DNA from: Paludibacter sp.
GTDB taxonomy: Bacteria > Bacteroidota > Bacteroidia > Bacteroidales > Paludibacteraceae
NCBI GenBank assembly: GCA_029973975.1
Contig: JARKQF010000125.1
Location: 1-63,660, forward strand
Reading direction: 5' to 3'
Length of the DNA: 63,660 nucleotides
Under the pieces are notes generated by a model. The model saw nothing but the letters and a program-made list of their open reading frames with translations. It searched no databases and had not been told where the DNA came from. The position numbers were made by a program, and so were the translations under genes. The stretch's first letter is position 1; each line of letters starts with the position of its first letter. This document shows positions 1,304 to 58,684 of the stretch, one piece after another.

Positions 1304-1334
1304 GGTTATTCCATTTAATTATTAGTTTTGCATA

Positions 1335-1342
1335 CAAAAGTA
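1335..1342 (-). promoter_or_regulatory. Putative Bacteroidetes -7 element for prmA
   Basis: On the minus strand this reads TACTTTTG, matching the TAnnTTTG -7 consensus of the Bacteroidetes major sigma factor, 31 bases from the prmA start. I found no TTTG at the -33 spacing, so only the -7 box is claimed. Confidence 0.55.
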
Positions 1343-1470
1343 CGCTAATTTGTTCAAAAAAGAAATCTGATCAAATCAATATTTAACGCTTATTGGTATA
1401 ATTATTGATATGTTCTTTATGCTGAATAGTCAATTTACAAACAGTTAAAAAAATAAGACATTCAAATATA

Positions 1471-38708: not shown

Positions 38709-38739
38709 TTTGATTTTTAAAATTATCTGTTTATCTTTG
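38709..38739 (+). promoter_or_regulatory. Promoter of the ilv leader/operon (TTTG-N19-TATCTTTG)
   Basis: TTTG at 38709-38712 and TATCTTTG at 38732-38739, with 19 bases between. This is a near-ideal Bacteroidetes promoter, placing transcription start near 38746 and the leader-peptide ATG about 17 bases later. Confidence 0.75.
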
Positions 38740-38762
38740 CAACCGATATTTAATCATAAAAC

Positions 38763-38831
38763 ATGTCAGTTCGTCTATTTAATATTGTCGCTTTAATCGT
38801 CGTGGTACTTTTGGTCAATCATCAAGGGTGA
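38763..38831 (+). CDS. Leader peptide of the ilv attenuator (IlvL-type)
   Basis: A 22-codon ORF starting at ATG 38763 and ending at TGA 38829-38831: MSVRLFNIVALIVVVLLV followed by NHQG. Twelve codons are Val, Leu or Ile, and codons 11-18 (38793-38816) are an unbroken run of eight of them. The codons used for Val include GTC, GTG, GTA and GTT; for Leu CTA, TTA, CTT and TTG. It begins just downstream of a strong promoter and is followed by alternative hairpins before ilvD, so it fits a classical ribosome-stalling leader sensing charged branched-chain tRNAs. The peptide itself probably has no other job. I recognised it by composition and place, not by homology. Confidence 0.85.
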   Translation: MSVRLFNIVALIVVVLLVNHQG

Positions 38832-38886
38832 GGACGGTTATGTGATAAATATTACAGATATAAATGCACAAGAAGCCTTTCTCACC
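38827..38886 (+). promoter_or_regulatory. Antiterminator pairing of the ilv attenuator
   Basis: GGTGAGGA (38827-38834, overlapping the leader stop codon) pairs with TTCTCACC (38879-38886): eight pairs, one of them G-U. The right half overlaps the 5' arm of the terminator (38876-38884), so the two structures exclude each other. A ribosome finishing the leader covers the left half; one stalled at codons 11-16 leaves it free. Confidence 0.7.
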
Positions 38887-38911
38887 AACAATGAGAGAGG
38901 TTTTTTCTTTT
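38876..38911 (+). terminator. Attenuator terminator before ilvD
   Basis: CCTTTCTCA (38876-38884), loop CCAACAA, TGAGAGAGG (38892-38900) form a 9-bp stem with one G-U pair, followed by TTTTTTCTTTT. A-U pairs can lengthen the base. It lies 50 bases before ilvD and inside the leader transcript. Confidence 0.85.
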
Positions 38912-38961
38912 ATATCTCAGGCAATTTGATTGATTTATAACAAAAAATTAAAAAACAGGAT

Positions 38962-40791
38962 ATGAAGAATATTTTGCGCAGTCAGACCAGTACCGGCGGA
39001 AGAAAAATGGCCGGAGCCAGAGCTTTGTGGAGAGCTAATGGTGTTACTGAACAACAATTTGGTAAACCTATCATCGCCGTTGTAAATTCATTTACCCAGT
39101 TTGTTCCGGGGCACGCTCACTTGCATGATATCGGTCAGAAAGTAAAAACCGAAATAGAAAAACTCGGCTGTTTCGCGGCTGAATTCAACACTATTGCCAT
39201 CGATGACGGAATCGCCATGGGTCACGACGGTATGTTGTATTCGCTTCCTTCCCGTGACCTGATTGCCGACAGCGTTGAATATATGGTGAATGCCCATAAA
39301 GCTGATGCGATGATCTGCATTTCCAACTGTGACAAAATCACGCCGGGTATGCTGATGGCTGCCATGCGACTGAATATCCCGACTGTATTTGTTTCGGGCG
39401 GACCGATGGAAGCCGGTGAACTGGACGGTAAACACCTCGATTTAATAGATGCGATGGTAATGGCTGCCGACGATGAAGTTACGGACGAACAGGTTACCAG
39501 GGTGGAAAGCGCTGCCTGCCCTACCTGCGGTTCCTGTTCCGGTATGTTTACTGCGAACTCAATGAACTGTCTGAACGAAGTTCTTGGTTTGGCACTGCCC
39601 GGCAACGGAACCATTGTTGCTACTCATGCCAATCGTGCCCGTTTGTTCGAGGATGCAGCCAAACTCATTGTAGAAAATGCTTATAAATATTACAGAGACG
39701 GTGATGACACTGTACTTCCGCGTACTATTGCTACTCGTGATGCGTTCATGAATGCCATGGTACTCGACATTGCGATGGGCGGTTCCACCAATACGATCCT
39801 GCATACGCTGGCTATTGCACATGAAGCCGAAGTTGATTTTACCATGGATGATATCGACGCACTTTCAAAAAACACGCCTTGTTTGTGTAAAGTAGCTCCC
39901 AATACAGAAAAATATCACATTCAGGATGTAAACCGCGCCGGTGGTATCCTGGGTATTCTGGGAGAGTTATCCAAAGGTGGCTTATTAAAAACGAATGTTT
40001 ACCGTGCCGATGGTTTGACTTTGCAGCAGGCTATTGAACAGTACAGCATTACCGGTGCAAATCCTAATCCCGAAGCTGTACGCATTTACAAAAGCGCCCC
40101 TGCCAACCGTTTCAATCTGGTTATGGGTTCGCAAAACTCACAATATAAAGAATTAGACATTGATCGTTCCAATGGTTGCATTCGCGATATGGCACATGCT
40201 TATACCGTCGATGGCGGTTTGGGTATTCTGAAAGGAAATATTGCAATCGACGGATGTGTAATCAAAACTGCCGGTGTAGATGAAAGCATCTGGAAATTCA
40301 GCGGACCGGCCAAGGTATTTACTTCACAGGATACTGCTTGTTACGGTATCTTGAGCGGAAAGGTAGTTGCAGGTGATGTGGTGGTTATAACACACGAAGG
40401 ACCTAAAGGTGGACCGGGTATGCAGGAAATGCTTTACCCTACTTCGTATATTAAATCAAAAAAATTAGGGAAAGAATGCGCATTGATTACTGACGGGCGT
40501 TTTTCCGGCGGGACATCAGGATTATCGATCGGACATATTTCTCCGGAAGCTGCATCAGGTGGAAATATCGGATTAATTGAAGATGGAGATATTATTGACA
40601 TTGACATTCCGAACAGAACCATCAATGTACGATTGAGCGATGAAGAACTGGCTGCCCGTCGCGAGAAAGAATTGGCGCGCGGAGCTGATGCCTTCACACC
40701 AAAAGACCGTAACCGAGTCGTCAGTAAGGCCCTGAAAGCCTATGCTTCGATGGTAAGCTCGGCAGACAAAGGGGCCGTGAGGATGATTTAA
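38962..40791 (+). CDS. ilvD: Dihydroxy-acid dehydratase
   Basis: 609 residues. An iron-sulfur enzyme forming 2-oxoisovalerate and 2-oxo-3-methylvalerate in valine and isoleucine synthesis. Cluster and active-site features: [13 protein letters not shown] (Cys123), the [19 protein letters not shown] block (Cys186, 189, 192), and near the C-terminus the [20 protein letters not shown] segment with the catalytic serine. [11 protein letters not shown] is near 81-91. The length fits the E. coli type. It is the first structural gene behind the attenuator and is separated from ilvB by 117 bp that contain a 28-bp palindrome. Confidence 0.97.
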
Positions 40792-40908: not shown

Positions 40909-42606
40909 ATGGAACACAAAAAAATGTCAGGGTCTCAAATCCTGATTGAATCAATGATAAAAGAAGGCGTAGATACCATCTTCGGATATCCGGGTGGCGC
41001 CATAATGCCGGCATTCGATGCTTTGTATGATTACCGTACCCGGCTGAATCACATATTAACCCGTCACGAGCAGGGAGCTGCGCATGCAGCTCAGGGTTAT
41101 GCGCGTGTATCCGGGAAAACGGGTGTATGCCTGGTAACTTCAGGTCCGGCTGCTACCAACACAGTTACCGGTATAAGCGATGCTATGCTCGACAGTACTC
41201 CGCTCGTTGTTATTACCGGTCAGGTTGTAGCTCCTTTGTTGGGGACTGATGCTTTTCAGGAAATTGATGTAGTTGGAATCACACAACCGGTTACCAAATG
41301 GGCATATCAGGTTCGTAGGGCGGAAGACATTGCCTGGGCTGTAGCCCGTGCTTTTTACATTGCCAAAAGCGGTCGCCCAGGCCCTGTTGTACTCGACATT
41401 ACTAAAAATGCACAGGTTCAGGAAGCCGAATTTGATTATAAACCATGCACGTATATCCGCAGTTACATTCCTATTCCTGAAGTCAATAGAGATCAGGTGG
41501 CATTGGCTGCTGAAATAATCAATGGCGCTAAAAAGCCTTATGCACTCGTTGGGCAGGGTGTTGTATTATCCGGAGCAGAAGCCGAACTGAAAGTTTTTCT
41601 GGAGAAAGCTGATATTCCGGCTGCATGGACGCTGCTTGGAGCATCGGCTATGCCTACTGATTTTCGCCTGAATAAAGGTTTTCTGGGGATGCACGGAAAT
41701 GTAGCTCCTAACATGAAAACAAATGAGTGTGATGTGTTGATTGCCATTGGAATGCGTTTTGATGACCGTGTAACCGGCGATTTGAACACATACGCCAAAC
41801 AGGCGAAAATAGTTCATTTAGATATTGATTTAGCTGAAATAAACAAGAATGTAAAAGCAGACGCACCGGTTTTAGGGAGTGCTAAAGATACCCTGCCTGC
41901 CATCACTGAATTGCTGAAACCGGCCAAGCATACCGAATGGATTGATTCATTCAAGGTGTATGATGATCAGGAGTTCGATAAAGTAATCCGGAAAGAACTT
42001 TATCCCGAATCCGGCGAACTGACGATGGGGGAAGTTATACGTAAAATATCAGAAGCTACACAACACAAAGCGGTAATAGTAACCGACGTAGGTCAGAATC
42101 AAATGATGGCAGCCCGTTACTCGAAGTACTCGCAGACTCGCAGTTTGGTTACCTCCGGTGGTCTCGGAACCATGGGATTCGGTATTCCGGCAGCGATGGG
42201 AGCTAAAATCGGCGCTCCAGAACGTACGGTTTGCATGTTCAGCGGCGACGGTGGTTTCCAGATGACCATTCAAGAACTCGGAACCATCATGCAGGAACAA
42301 ATCGGTGTGAAAATGATCATTCTGAACAATCATTTTTTAGGGATGGTTCGTCAGTGGCAAGAAATGTTCTTTGATGAAAGATATTCATTCACTGAAATGC
42401 AAAACCCTGATTTTGTTTCTATTGCCAGAGCCTATCGTATTGATGGCACCGAGGTGCTGAAAAGAGAAGATCTGGATGCAGCCATTGCAGATATGCTGAA
42501 AGACGATAAACCCTATCTGCTAGTAGTTAATGTAGAGAAAAAAGGAATGGTTTACCCCATGATGCCCGCAGGCGCGAGTGTTACTAACATCCTGCTGGGA
42601 GAATAA
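40909..42606 (+). CDS. ilvB: Acetolactate synthase, large (catalytic) subunit
   Basis: 565 residues. A TPP- and FAD-dependent enzyme making acetolactate or acetohydroxybutyrate. The N-terminal PYR domain has DTIFGYPGGAIMPAFDALYD (about 20-39) with the catalytic glutamate in HEQGAAHAAQGYAR. The central FAD/DHS-like domain includes GMHGNVAPNMKTNECDVLIAIGMRFDDRVTG. The C-terminal TPP motif is MFSGDGGFQMTIQELGT...LNNHFLGMVRQWQ. It is followed by ilvN after 31 bp. Confidence 0.97.
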   Translation: MEHKKMSGSQILIESMIKEGVDTIFGYPGGAIMPAFDALYDYRTRLNHILTRHEQGAAHAAQGYARVSGKTGVCLVTSGPAATNTVTGISDAMLDSTPLVVITGQVVAPLLGTDAFQEIDVVGITQPVTKWAYQVRRAEDIAWAVARAFYIAKSGRPGPVVLDITKNAQVQEAEFDYKPCTYIRSYIPIPEVNRDQVALAAEIINGAKKPYALVGQGVVLSGAEAELKVFLEKADIPAAWTLLGASAMPTDFRLNKGFLGMHGNVAPNMKTNECDVLIAIGMRFDDRVTGDLNTYAKQAKIVHLDIDLAEINKNVKADAPVLGSAKDTLPAITELLKPAKHTEWIDSFKVYDDQEFDKVIRKELYPESGELTMGEVIRKISEATQHKAVIVTDVGQNQMMAARYSKYSQTRSLVTSGGLGTMGFGIPAAMGAKIGAPERTVCMFSGDGGFQMTIQELGTIMQEQIGVKMIILNNHFLGMVRQWQEMFFDERYSFTEMQNPDFVSIARAYRIDGTEVLKREDLDAAIADMLKDDKPYLLVVNVEKKGMVYPMMPAGASVTNILLGE

Positions 42607-42637: not shown

Positions 42638-43177
42638 ATGGAAAATAAATTATATACAATCACCATCTTTTCCGAAAATACCGTTGGTTTACTGAACCAG
42701 ATTACGATTATTTTCACCCGCAGGGCAATTAACATAGAAACCCTGTCGGTCTCTCCTTCGGCATTGAAAGGTATCCATAAGTTTACCATCACAGTTTTCA
42801 CCAATGAAAGTACGGTAGAAAAAGTGGTCAAACAAATCGACAAGAGAGTTGATATCCTGAAGTCTTATTATAATACGGATGAAGACCTTGTGCACCAGGA
42901 AATTGCACTTTACAAAGTTGCTACAGATAAGTTACTGGGATTAGGGTCTATCGAAAAACTGGTTCGTCATTACAACATCAGCATCCTCGAAATGAATGAA
43001 ACCTTCGTTGTTTTCCAGAAATCTGGTCATTATGCTGAAACTCAGCAATTATTTGACGAGTTAAGCGCAACGGTAGGCGTATTGCAATTCATCCGTTCCG
43101 GTCGTGTCGCCATTACAAAACATAAGGTAGAGCGATTGAGTGACATGCTTGAAACGCTGAAAAAGTTTGAACAGTAA
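42638..43177 (+). CDS. ilvN: Acetolactate synthase, small (regulatory) subunit
   Basis: 179 residues. The N-terminal ACT domain YTITIFSENTVGLLNQITIIFTRRAINIETLSVSPSA (about 4-40) binds valine for feedback control; the aspartate/asparagine and glycine positions in SENTVGLL fit the ligand loop. The C-terminal half carries the ALS small-subunit C domain, with HYNISILEMNETFVVFQKSGH (about 109-129). Length and gene order with ilvB are typical. It ends 81 bp before ilvC. Confidence 0.94.
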   Translation: MENKLYTITIFSENTVGLLNQITIIFTRRAINIETLSVSPSALKGIHKFTITVFTNESTVEKVVKQIDKRVDILKSYYNTDEDLVHQEIALYKVATDKLLGLGSIEKLVRHYNISILEMNETFVVFQKSGHYAETQQLFDELSATVGVLQFIRSGRVAITKHKVERLSDMLETLKKFEQ

Positions 43178-43258: not shown

Positions 43259-44734
43259 ATGGCAAATTATTTCAATTCACTACCGCATCGCCTGAAAGTT
43301 CAGGAACTGGGAAAATGTGATTTTATGGAAAGCAGCGAGTTCGCTGATGGTGTAAATAAACTACTGGGTAAACGAATCGTTATTATTGGTTGCGGTGCAC
43401 AAGGTTTAGCACAAGGCCAGAATATGCGCGACAGCGGTTTAAATGTTGCATACGCTTTACGTAAGGAAGCTATTGAACAAAAACGTGATTCATGGAAAAG
43501 AGCTACAGAAAACGGATTTGAAGTAGGTACCTTCGAGGAAATGATTCCTGCTGCTGATTTGGTATCAAACCTGGCTCCTGATAAACAACATACCGGTGTA
43601 ATTGAAAAAATTATCCCCCTGATGAAGAAAGGAGCTTGCTTGTCTTACTCACATGGTTTTAATATCGTGGAAGAAGGTATGCAAATCAGAAAAGACATTA
43701 CTGTTGTCATGATTGCACCCAAATCGCCTGCTACCGAAGTCCGCGCTGAATACCTGCGTGGATTTGGCGTTCCGACTTTGATCGCGGTTCACCGTGACAA
43801 CGATCCGAACGGCGACGGACTGGAAATTGCTAAAGCATACTGTGTTGGTACGGGAGGACATCGTGCAGGTGTATTACTGTCTTCATTTGTTGCAGAAGTT
43901 AAATCCGACCTGATGGGAGAACAAACCATCCTTTGCGGATTGTTACAAACCGGTTCTATTCTTTCTTTCAATAAGATGATTGAAAAGGGAATCGATAAGG
44001 GCTATGCCTCTAAGCTGGTTCAATATGGTTGGGAAGTTATAACGGAAGCTCTCAAGATCGGAGGTATTACCAATATGATGGACAGGTTGTCCAACCCTGC
44101 CAAAATTGAAGCGTATAAACTGGCAGATGAGTTGAAAACTATTATGACTCCATTGTTTGCCAAACACATGGATGACATTCTTTCCGGAGAGTTTTCGCGT
44201 ATCATGATGGAAGACTGGGCAAATGGCGACAAGAATCTGTTGGCCTGGCGTGCAGCTACCGGCGAAACAGATTTCGAAAAAACACCTGCCGGCAATATTG
44301 AAATCAGTGAACAGGAATACTTCGACAATGCTACGCTGATGGTCGCTTTTGTAAAGGCAGGTGTTGAGTTGGCTTACGAAACAATGACCAGCGCCGGAAT
44401 CAAACCGGAATCGGCTTATTATGAGTCATTGCACGAAACGCCGCTGATTGCTAATACAATTGCCCGCAAAAAATTATTCGAAATGAATCGTGTTATCTCT
44501 GACACGGCTGAATATGGTTGTTATTTGTTTGATCATGCCTGTAAACCTTTGTTGGCCGATTTTATGAAAAAAGTGGACACCAACCTTATTGGTAAAAACT
44601 TTAACGAAGGCAAAAGCAATCATGTTGATAACTTCGAACTGGTAGAGGTTAATGCGGCCATCCGCAACCACTCCATCGAAGTATGTGGTGCCGAATTACG
44701 TGCAGCCATGACTGCTATGAAGAAAATTGTATAA
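43259..44734 (+). CDS. ilvC: Ketol-acid reductoisomerase, class II
   Basis: 491 residues, the long class II form with two C-terminal knotted domains (the short class I has about 330). NADPH-binding Rossmann motif [30 protein letters not shown] (about 40-69), the HGFNIV loop (about 136-141), [11 protein letters not shown] with metal-binding Asp and Glu (about 216-226), and [13 protein letters not shown]. It isomerises and reduces acetolactate to dihydroxy-isovalerate, feeding IlvD. The last gene of the ilvD-B-N-C unit, closed by a strong terminator. A short CGATTGA/TCAATCG palindrome (43195-43211) lies in the gap before it. Confidence 0.96.
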
Positions 44735-54502: not shown

Positions 54503-54584
54503 GCGGCTGTGGCGTAATTGGTAGCCGCGCCAGACTTAGGATCTGGTGCCGAGAGGCGTGGGGGTTCGAGTCCCTTCAGCCGCA
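54503..54584 (+). tRNA. tRNA-Leu (anticodon UAG)
   Basis: Acceptor arms GCGGCTG (54503-54509) and CAGCCGC (54577-54583) pair fully, with discriminator A. Anticodon stem CCAGA/TCTGG holds loop CTTAGGA with TAG at 54537-54539. A long variable arm (TGCCGAGAGGCG region) and the T loop GTTCGAG complete a class II tRNA. CCA is not encoded. A strong terminator follows directly. Confidence 0.95.
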
Positions 54585-54626
54585 CACAAAAAATCCTGAT
54601 TCATATTGAGTCAGGATTTTTTGTGT
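54584..54626. terminator. Terminator after tRNA-Leu(UAG)
   Basis: ACACAAAAAATCCTGA (54584-54599) and TCAGGATTTTTTGTGT (54611-54626) form a perfect 16-bp stem with T runs in both directions. It can also terminate the GlsB-like transcript coming from the other side. Confidence 0.85.
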
Positions 54627-58499: not shown

Positions 58500-58583
58500 G
58501 CCCAGATGGTGAAATTGGTAGACACGCTAGTTTCAGGGACTAGTGGCCGCAAGGCTGTGCAGGTTCGAGTCCTGTTCTGGGCA
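58500..58583 (+). tRNA. tRNA-Leu (anticodon CAG)
   Basis: Acceptor arms GCCCAGA (58500-58506) and TCTGGGC (58576-58582) pair, discriminator A. Anticodon stem CTAGT/ACTAG with loop TTCAGGG gives CAG. The long variable arm (GGCCGCAAGGCT region) marks a class II tRNA. CCA not encoded. 54 bases after tRNA-Gly. Confidence 0.95.
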
Positions 58584-58597
58584 CACTTTAACTTCAT

Positions 58598-58684
58598 GCG
58601 CAGGTGGTGAAATTGGTATACACGCTACTTTGAGGGGGTAGTGCCGGTTACGGCGTGTGAGTTCGAGTCTCATCCTGCGCACCA
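58598..58684 (+). tRNA. tRNA-Leu (anticodon GAG), CCA encoded
   Basis: Acceptor arms GCGCAGG (58598-58604) and CCTGCGC (58674-58680), discriminator A, followed by CCA in the DNA (58682-58684), unlike the other three tRNA genes here. Anticodon loop TTGAGGG gives GAG. It lies 14 bases after the CAG gene and closely resembles it in the D-arm region. It almost touches the stop codon of the convergent CDF gene. Confidence 0.95.

Follow-up and report, generated by a model that had tools for sequence, protein, structure and literature searches.

A predicted leader-peptide attenuator before the ilvDBNC genes of Paludibacter and the conservation of its plan in Bacteroidales

What sets the expression of the branched-chain amino acid (BCAA) genes in Bacteroidales? 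The question is raised by a stretch of 63,660 nucleotides from Paludibacter sp. (contig JARKQF010000125.1; hereafter the window), in which ilvD-ilvB-ilvN-ilvC, four genes that are probably co-transcribed, are preceded by a Bacteroidota-type promoter sequence, a leader ORF of 22 codons, and an intrinsic terminator, in this order (Table 1). The products of all four genes score above their NCBIfam cut-offs, and the named contigs nearest to it by IlvD carry the labels Paludibacter, Porphyromonas, and Bacteroides. In Escherichia coli, the ilvGMEDA, ilvBN, and leuABCD attenuators have an Ile/Val/Leu-rich leader peptide, three competing helices, and a terminator before the BCAA genes. An earlier note on the window, made from the letters alone, had proposed a leader-peptide attenuator of simplified layout for this locus. 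The present analysis makes it very probable that ilvDBNC expression is governed by a ribosome-mediated transcription attenuator that responds to the availability of charged Val and Leu tRNAs, perhaps of charged Ile tRNAs as well.

Table 1. Features of the ilv locus and related places. Positions are those of the window unless another place in the same genome is named.
Feature	Position	Strand	Details
-33 element TTTG	38709..38712	+	read in the sequence
-7 element TATCTTTG (TAnnTTTG)	38732..38739	+	19-nt spacer from TTTG; consensus as in PMC7366714
Leader ORF, 22 codons, MSVRLFNIVALIVVVLLVNHQG	38763..38831	+	plan conserved in relatives
Eight Leu/Ile/Val codons in a row (codons 11-18)	38793..38816	+	sensing predicted at codons 14-17
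Segment 1	38794..38815	+	outer helix 38794-38801 with 38833-38840; inner helix 38806-38815 with 38821-38830
Segment 2	38821..38840	+	stop codon of the leader at 38829-38831; antiterminator half made up of 38827-38834 and 38836-38839
Segment 3	38874..38886	+	common to antiterminator (2:3) and terminator (3:4)
Segment 4 and terminator T tract	38892..38906	+	terminator core 38876-38900, T tract to 38906
ilvD, dihydroxy-acid dehydratase	38962..40791	+	TIGR00110, 779.5 bits, cut-off 618
ilvB, acetolactate synthase large subunit	40909..42606	+	TIGR00118, 688.5 bits, cut-off 538
ilvN, acetolactate synthase small subunit	42638..43177	+	TIGR00119, 77.4 bits, cut-off 56.9
ilvC, ketol-acid reductoisomerase	43259..44734	+	TIGR00465, 421 bits, cut-off 226
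Three tRNA-Leu genes	54503..54585, 58500..58584, 58598..58684		anticodons TAG, CAG, GAG
Leu-rich leader MNNNFLHILLLGIIILLQKQ	L206 (own genome C201), 1333-1395		terminator AACCTTTCTCAC...GTGAGAAAGGTTTTTT, before leuA-like gene
Phe/Tyr leader MTRFFTYFYFYFYFKR	L275 (own genome C44), 970-1020	reverse	terminator; before pheA-like gene (PF00800)
Trp leader MKQNLVNTAWWWRLQNFGS (Trp-Trp-Trp)	L172 (own genome C176:6121-6251)		before trpB-like gene; Bacteroid-trp 42.1 bits, threshold 49

The leader ORF itself is as the earlier note had read it, with 12 of the 22 codons for Val, Leu, or Ile (six, four, and two, respectively) and eight of them in an uninterrupted run. It is a short upstream ORF enriched in codons for the products of the pathway, as is usual in the attenuator class. 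Its conservation was examined in 135 distinct Bacteroidales-type ilvD upstream regions, drawn from ilvD loci on named contigs and from the loci of relatives after duplicates and loci with less than 150 nt upstream had been removed; for the 80 named-contig loci, those with non-Bacteroidota record titles were excluded, and two (L144, L145) had no usable ilvD start. ORFs of 8-40 codons with an ATG start were considered, and Ile, Leu, and Val were counted per eight codons. With at least six, seven, or eight of these residues in eight codons, an ORF was found in 86, 64, and 23 of the 135 regions, as against 5.5%, 0.63%, and 0.04% of 5,400 shuffled sequences, 8, 2, and 1 of the 135 reverse complements, and 6, 1, and 0 of 166 upstream regions of other long ORFs. 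In the genus, an ilvD match was obtained in 31 genomes including the present one, and leader and terminator occur together in all of the 28 upstream regions examined, once with a GTG start; three genomes were left out because of fragmentary genes (G186, G188) or a contig that ends at ilvD (G192). The conserved BCAA-rich ORF in close relatives, which had been set as a check on the proposal, is thus present.

When leader and terminator were required jointly, 83 of the 135 regions passed and 52 failed, eight of the latter having an ORF but a terminator undetected by the detector used. By this joint filter no Ile/Leu/Val leader was found at several Prevotella-type and rumen ilvD loci (L025, L028, L029, L031, L033, L040, L043-L047, and similar ones). 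Beyond the genus, where 60 of the places with an ilvD match were sampled, the sequence of the leaders varies and the plan is kept, as in Odoribacter laneus (L073; MTNLSLHLINILMLVVLCHDVRKVYLME), Labilibaculum (L053; MLSFKVVIIVIIISIVIIRMTRRESVHIQ), and Bacteroides graminisolvens (L003; MITSTSINLSLLDIISVVVVPSRA), in the last of which a hairpin is visible though the terminator detector missed it. Related bacteria therefore seem to carry varied forms of the putative ilv leader switch. Among the phylum-wide ilvD matches listed, which are 32-58% identical, 9 of 29 loci checked have some short ORF rich in Ile, Leu, and Val.

Seven loci from another family of the phylum (L175, L178, L186, L187, L191, L199, L203) form a separate observation. 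Some of them have, roughly 100 nt ahead of ilvD, a short ORF rich in Ile, Leu, and Val, and several have in common a stretch like CCCAAGTCCAT...GGCTTCGGGA downstream of the short ORF; the two together are perhaps a different BCAA attenuator.

The predicted promoter of the window leader, TTTG and TATCTTTG at a distance of 19 nt, was found where the earlier note had placed it. The -7 box TAnnTTTG lies within 80 nt of the start codon in 77 of 82 leaders, 6.8 being expected from shuffles, and the median distance from its end to the start codon is 22 nt in the 82 leaders examined, 72 of which also have TTG 17-27 nt upstream of the box. An SD-like tetramer is present in the last 20 nt before the start in only 2 of the 82, and A makes up 54% of the final 15 nt. 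According to a study of B. thetaiotaomicron (Ryan et al. 2020, PMC7366714), the promoter consensus in that species is the same as here, the commonest 5' UTR is 23 nt long, a classical SD sequence is absent, adenine is enriched, and some long 5' UTRs hold short ORFs that are reminiscent of leader peptides. A leader start so near the transcription start, which had been regarded as noteworthy in itself, is therefore ordinary for Bacteroides, and the puzzle of starting without an SD sequence is a property of the phylum, not of the window leader. Consensus scans by themselves would not make the case for the element: a sigma-70-like promoter scan gave one site (3.8 expected) and a scan for terminator-like sites also gave one (0.7 expected).

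The RNA of the window leader folds better than 200 out of 200 shuffled versions (z -4.97). The terminator hairpin and its T tract are present, and so is an antiterminator between 38827-38834 and 38879-38886 that overlaps the left arm of the terminator; it is longer than had been described, being extended by 38836-38839 with 38874-38877. The leader stop codon lies inside its left half, in segment 2. Antiterminator and terminator have one segment in common and are mutually exclusive, as in known attenuators. In one respect the earlier reading failed: it had seen a two-stem logic without a 1:2 hairpin, whereas a 1:2 helix with an inner and an outer part is predicted, which overlaps the control codons in the manner of a protector hairpin.

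An alignment of 34 sequences, hand-picked from 38 near relatives, was used to follow the helices. Pairing is kept in 94.9% of cells for the inner and 74.3% for the outer 1:2 helix, in 92.7% for 2:3, and in 93.3% for 3:4, while the best slid versions of the helices reach 62.6% (inner 1:2), 63.4% (2:3), and 65.2% (3:4). Few pairs have changed on both sides (none in 1:2, one in 2:3, and two in 3:4), which is no more than in shuffles. Therefore, the near relatives speak of conservation, not of covariation; in the genus, the segments are too uniform for strict covariation to be more than weak.

For this reason, partners were permuted among divergent leaders. In a set of 52 leaders with less than 20% common 8-mers, each segment was paired with its own partner and with partners from other loci. 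The own partner gave -14.9 kcal/mol for 2:3, as compared to -12.1 kcal/mol for foreign partners (z -8.0), and -17.3 as compared to -13.6 kcal/mol for 1:2 (z -9.0), with 0 of 5,000 permutations doing as well in either case; for 3:4 the z value was -16.5, and five control pairings of neighbouring stretches lay between -1.4 and +1.1. With a 6-mer criterion, 27 leaders from outside the genus gave z values of -6.3 (1:2), -6.0 (2:3), and -12.9 (3:4), and -0.4 for the control. In 64 of 83 leaders, the stop-codon region also paired more strongly with the terminator arm than did shuffled versions of that region (p <= 0.05); the test failed in the other 19, in some of which (L009, L016, L026) the called ORF extends past segment 2. 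The covariation check that the earlier note had suggested was thus answered in two ways, as strict covariation inside the genus did not exceed controls, but pairing of all three helices is partner-specific in divergent leaders. Since the 1:2 hairpin is strong and conserved, the element appears to have the full three-helix design.

The partner-specific pairing also bears on a role of the leader ORF in translation. Leader ORFs can increase downstream translation by re-initiation (PMC4833913), and the ilv leader ORF could in principle act mainly on ilvD translation, or as a peptide, with a terminator that works constitutively. This is hardly credible, because the leader stop codon is 130 nt from ilvD with the terminator between them, and because a constitutive terminator has no need of the 2:3 pairing that is kept.

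The position of a stalled ribosome was simulated with a footprint that extends 13 nt past the first nucleotide of the codon in the A site. Without a ribosome, the window leader has a terminator probability of 1.00 and a 1:2 probability of 0.97. The complete leader antiterminates only when codons 14-17 (GTG GTA CTT TTG; Val-Val-Leu-Leu) are in the A site, the antiterminator probability being 0.91-0.95 at these codons and at most 0.25 elsewhere. By folding, therefore, a ribosome halted at the control codons leaves segment 2 open and one at the stop codon covers it, which agrees with the earlier proposal that a stall in the Val/Leu run frees the antiterminator and finished translation hides it.

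Classical attenuation models assume that the decision is made during transcription. When nascent RNA was folded before segment 4 had appeared, a permissive window of codons was found in 82 of 83 leaders; Ile, Leu, and Val make up 63% of the codons inside these windows and 16% of those outside (rotation control, 0 of 2,000), and 68 of the 82 windows close 0-2 codons past the final Ile, Leu, or Val codon of the densest stretch. When the complete leader was folded instead, only 28 of the 83 leaders showed a permissive window, with 80% of such codons inside and 51% outside. Therefore, a kinetic decision during transcription would be needed in most relatives.

As many as 65 of the 82 nascent windows begin as early as codon 2, so that what 1:2 does in the absence of a ribosome is less evident in the relatives than in the window. 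These early windows speak for a version with two stems, in which antiterminator and terminator alone compete and 1:2 has no function: 2:3 forms with the ribosome at codon 2, and 1:2 may compete only weakly before segment 4 in many relatives. Such a version is nevertheless improbable, given the near-complete formation of 1:2 in the window without a ribosome, the conservation of the inner and outer 1:2 helices in near relatives, and the partner specificity of 1:2 in divergent leaders, inside and outside the genus.

The three-helix attenuator would work as follows. A ribosome would initiate on the leader ORF with no SD sequence. With branched-chain aminoacyl-tRNA in plentiful supply, it would pass the Val/Leu codons to the stop codon and cover segment 2; 3:4 would then pair, and transcription would end near 38906. 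With aminoacyl-tRNA scarce, the ribosome would stall in Val-Val-Leu-Leu, covering segment 1 and leaving segment 2 free, so that 2:3 would pair and the polymerase would read into ilvD. If the leader were untranslated, 1:2 would form and the terminator would be favoured. Overall, conservation, partner-specific pairing, and the stall simulation lend strong support to leader-peptide attenuation of ilvDBNC, the core of the earlier note; its two-stem layout and the special status of the compact start are not supported.

The choice of codons in the leaders differs from that in ilvD. At 54 loci with enough ilvD sequence, the share of GTC among Val codons rises from 10% in ilvD to 49% in the leaders, and that of CTA among Leu codons from 4% to 16%. 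GTC and GTG together have a larger share of Val codons in the leader than in ilvD at 52 of 53 loci, with means of 83% and 37%. One theory holds that attenuators favour the codons whose tRNAs are depleted first. Third-base pairing was considered as a cause of the Val codon preference and was not supported, since GTC and GTG account for 80 of 89 Val codons with an unpaired third base and 121 of 147 with a paired one in 52 leaders.

A covariance model was built from the near ilv leaders, and the own genome and those of the genus were scanned with it. In the own genome, the window element scores 127.6 bits; another strong match, at 64.3 bits, lies before a leuA-like gene. A match at E <= 0.01 was obtained in 40 of 40 genus genomes and at E <= 2e-22 in 35, the best match being weaker in the other five. 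Of twenty further places, chosen by hand and not at random, 16 have a leuA-like gene preceded by a Leu-rich leader and one has a pheA-like gene preceded by a Phe/Tyr leader; one more has an ilv-like leader that lacks a terminator, and two have no acceptable leader. The leuA-like and pheA-like genes of the own genome have leaders resembling the ilv element, each a short leader peptide with a terminator close behind, but the peptide is rich in Leu or in Phe/Tyr, for its own pathway. A Trp leader precedes a trpB-like gene in the same genome (Table 1); the leuA-like and trpB-like genes were named from domain matches or from reading of the sequence. As the leader residue follows the pathway (Leu for leuA, Phe/Tyr for pheA, and Trp for trpB), there is strong support for sensing by a stalled ribosome. 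No His leader passed the filters before the own hisG (ATG starts, one locus), and no Thr leader was seen in a stretch that may stop short of the gene start.

A Phe/Tyr leader similar to that of the own genome is present in a same-genus genome, G130 (L273). In another genome, a second ilv-like leader (L263; G356:C98:2644-2760) shares a contig with the main leader; neither a T-tract terminator nor a long ORF was seen behind it, and it is perhaps a decayed duplicate.

A riboswitch or a T-box, too, is typically found in a long structured leader with a terminator, ahead of a biosynthetic operon. It is, however, highly improbable that a ligand-binding riboswitch or T-box RNA ends in the terminator and that the Ile/Leu/Val-rich ORF is incidental. 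No Rfam family matches the leader at its gathering score (the only matches at that score in the whole window are four tRNAs), and the 17 sub-threshold matches include no T-box or amino-acid riboswitch. Moreover, the conserved parts are the residue class of the ORF and the competing segments, not an aptamer, and the leuA, pheA, and trpB leaders bear the residues of their own pathways.

Among the Rfam results obtained, the only amino-acid leader family of the phylum is Bacteroid-trp (RF01692), the Bacteroidete tryptophan peptide leader RNA, which is listed in Weinberg et al. 2010 (PMC2864571). It resembles the ilv element in being a cis-regulatory leader peptide of Bacteroidetes with a similar length, but it has Trp codons and precedes trp genes. 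Membership of the ilv element in this family was rejected: it scores 24.9 bits (E 1.2), below the gathering threshold of 49, has no Trp codon, and stands before ilvDBNC. The Corynebacterium ilvB uORF motif, an Ile/Leu/Val-enriched uORF with terminator and antiterminator that is reported to act as a uORF on ilv expression (PMC11109978, PMC10272879), is alike by its description, in the codons of the uORF, the terminator, and the antiterminator; all of its 103 representatives are in Corynebacterium (PMC11109978). The likeness to the E. coli ilvGMEDA, ilvBN, and leuABCD attenuators extends to every sequence-level feature that could be tested; this comparison is by features alone, and the window element differs in belonging to another phylum, with a Bacteroidota promoter, no SD sequence, and a different operon order. 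From its sequence, the window element is well supported as a further instance of this known attenuator class.

Vitreschak et al. (2004) reportedly mention candidate attenuators in Bacteroidetes/Chlorobi. In the open-licence literature searched, no paper was recognised that describes a leader attenuator of ilv, leu, or phe genes for Bacteroidota. Naville and Gautheret 2010 (PMC2965389) state that they knew no leader-peptide system outside Proteobacteria and Actinobacteria, the atypical ermC leader excepted, and knowledge of post-transcriptional control in B. thetaiotaomicron has been called sparse (PMC7366714). Covariance models could draw on the 83 ilv leaders together with the leu, phe, and trp leaders that accompany them; no Rfam family reached its threshold on the ilv element.

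It seems somewhat more probable than not that Bacteroidales use a set of attenuators for several amino-acid pathways (ilv, leu, phe/tyr, and trp in one genome) with SD-less starts, so that close coupling of ribosome and polymerase would be needed, and that the ilv leaders are tuned through Val codons that are rarer in ilvD, which would give extra sensitivity to particular valyl-tRNAs. The ilv leader is a concrete, conserved candidate circuit for the control of BCAA synthesis in Bacteroidales. If it works as an attenuator, coupling between polymerase and ribosome must hold at least across the SD-less leader, and therefore the leader could serve as a natural reporter of coupling in the phylum.
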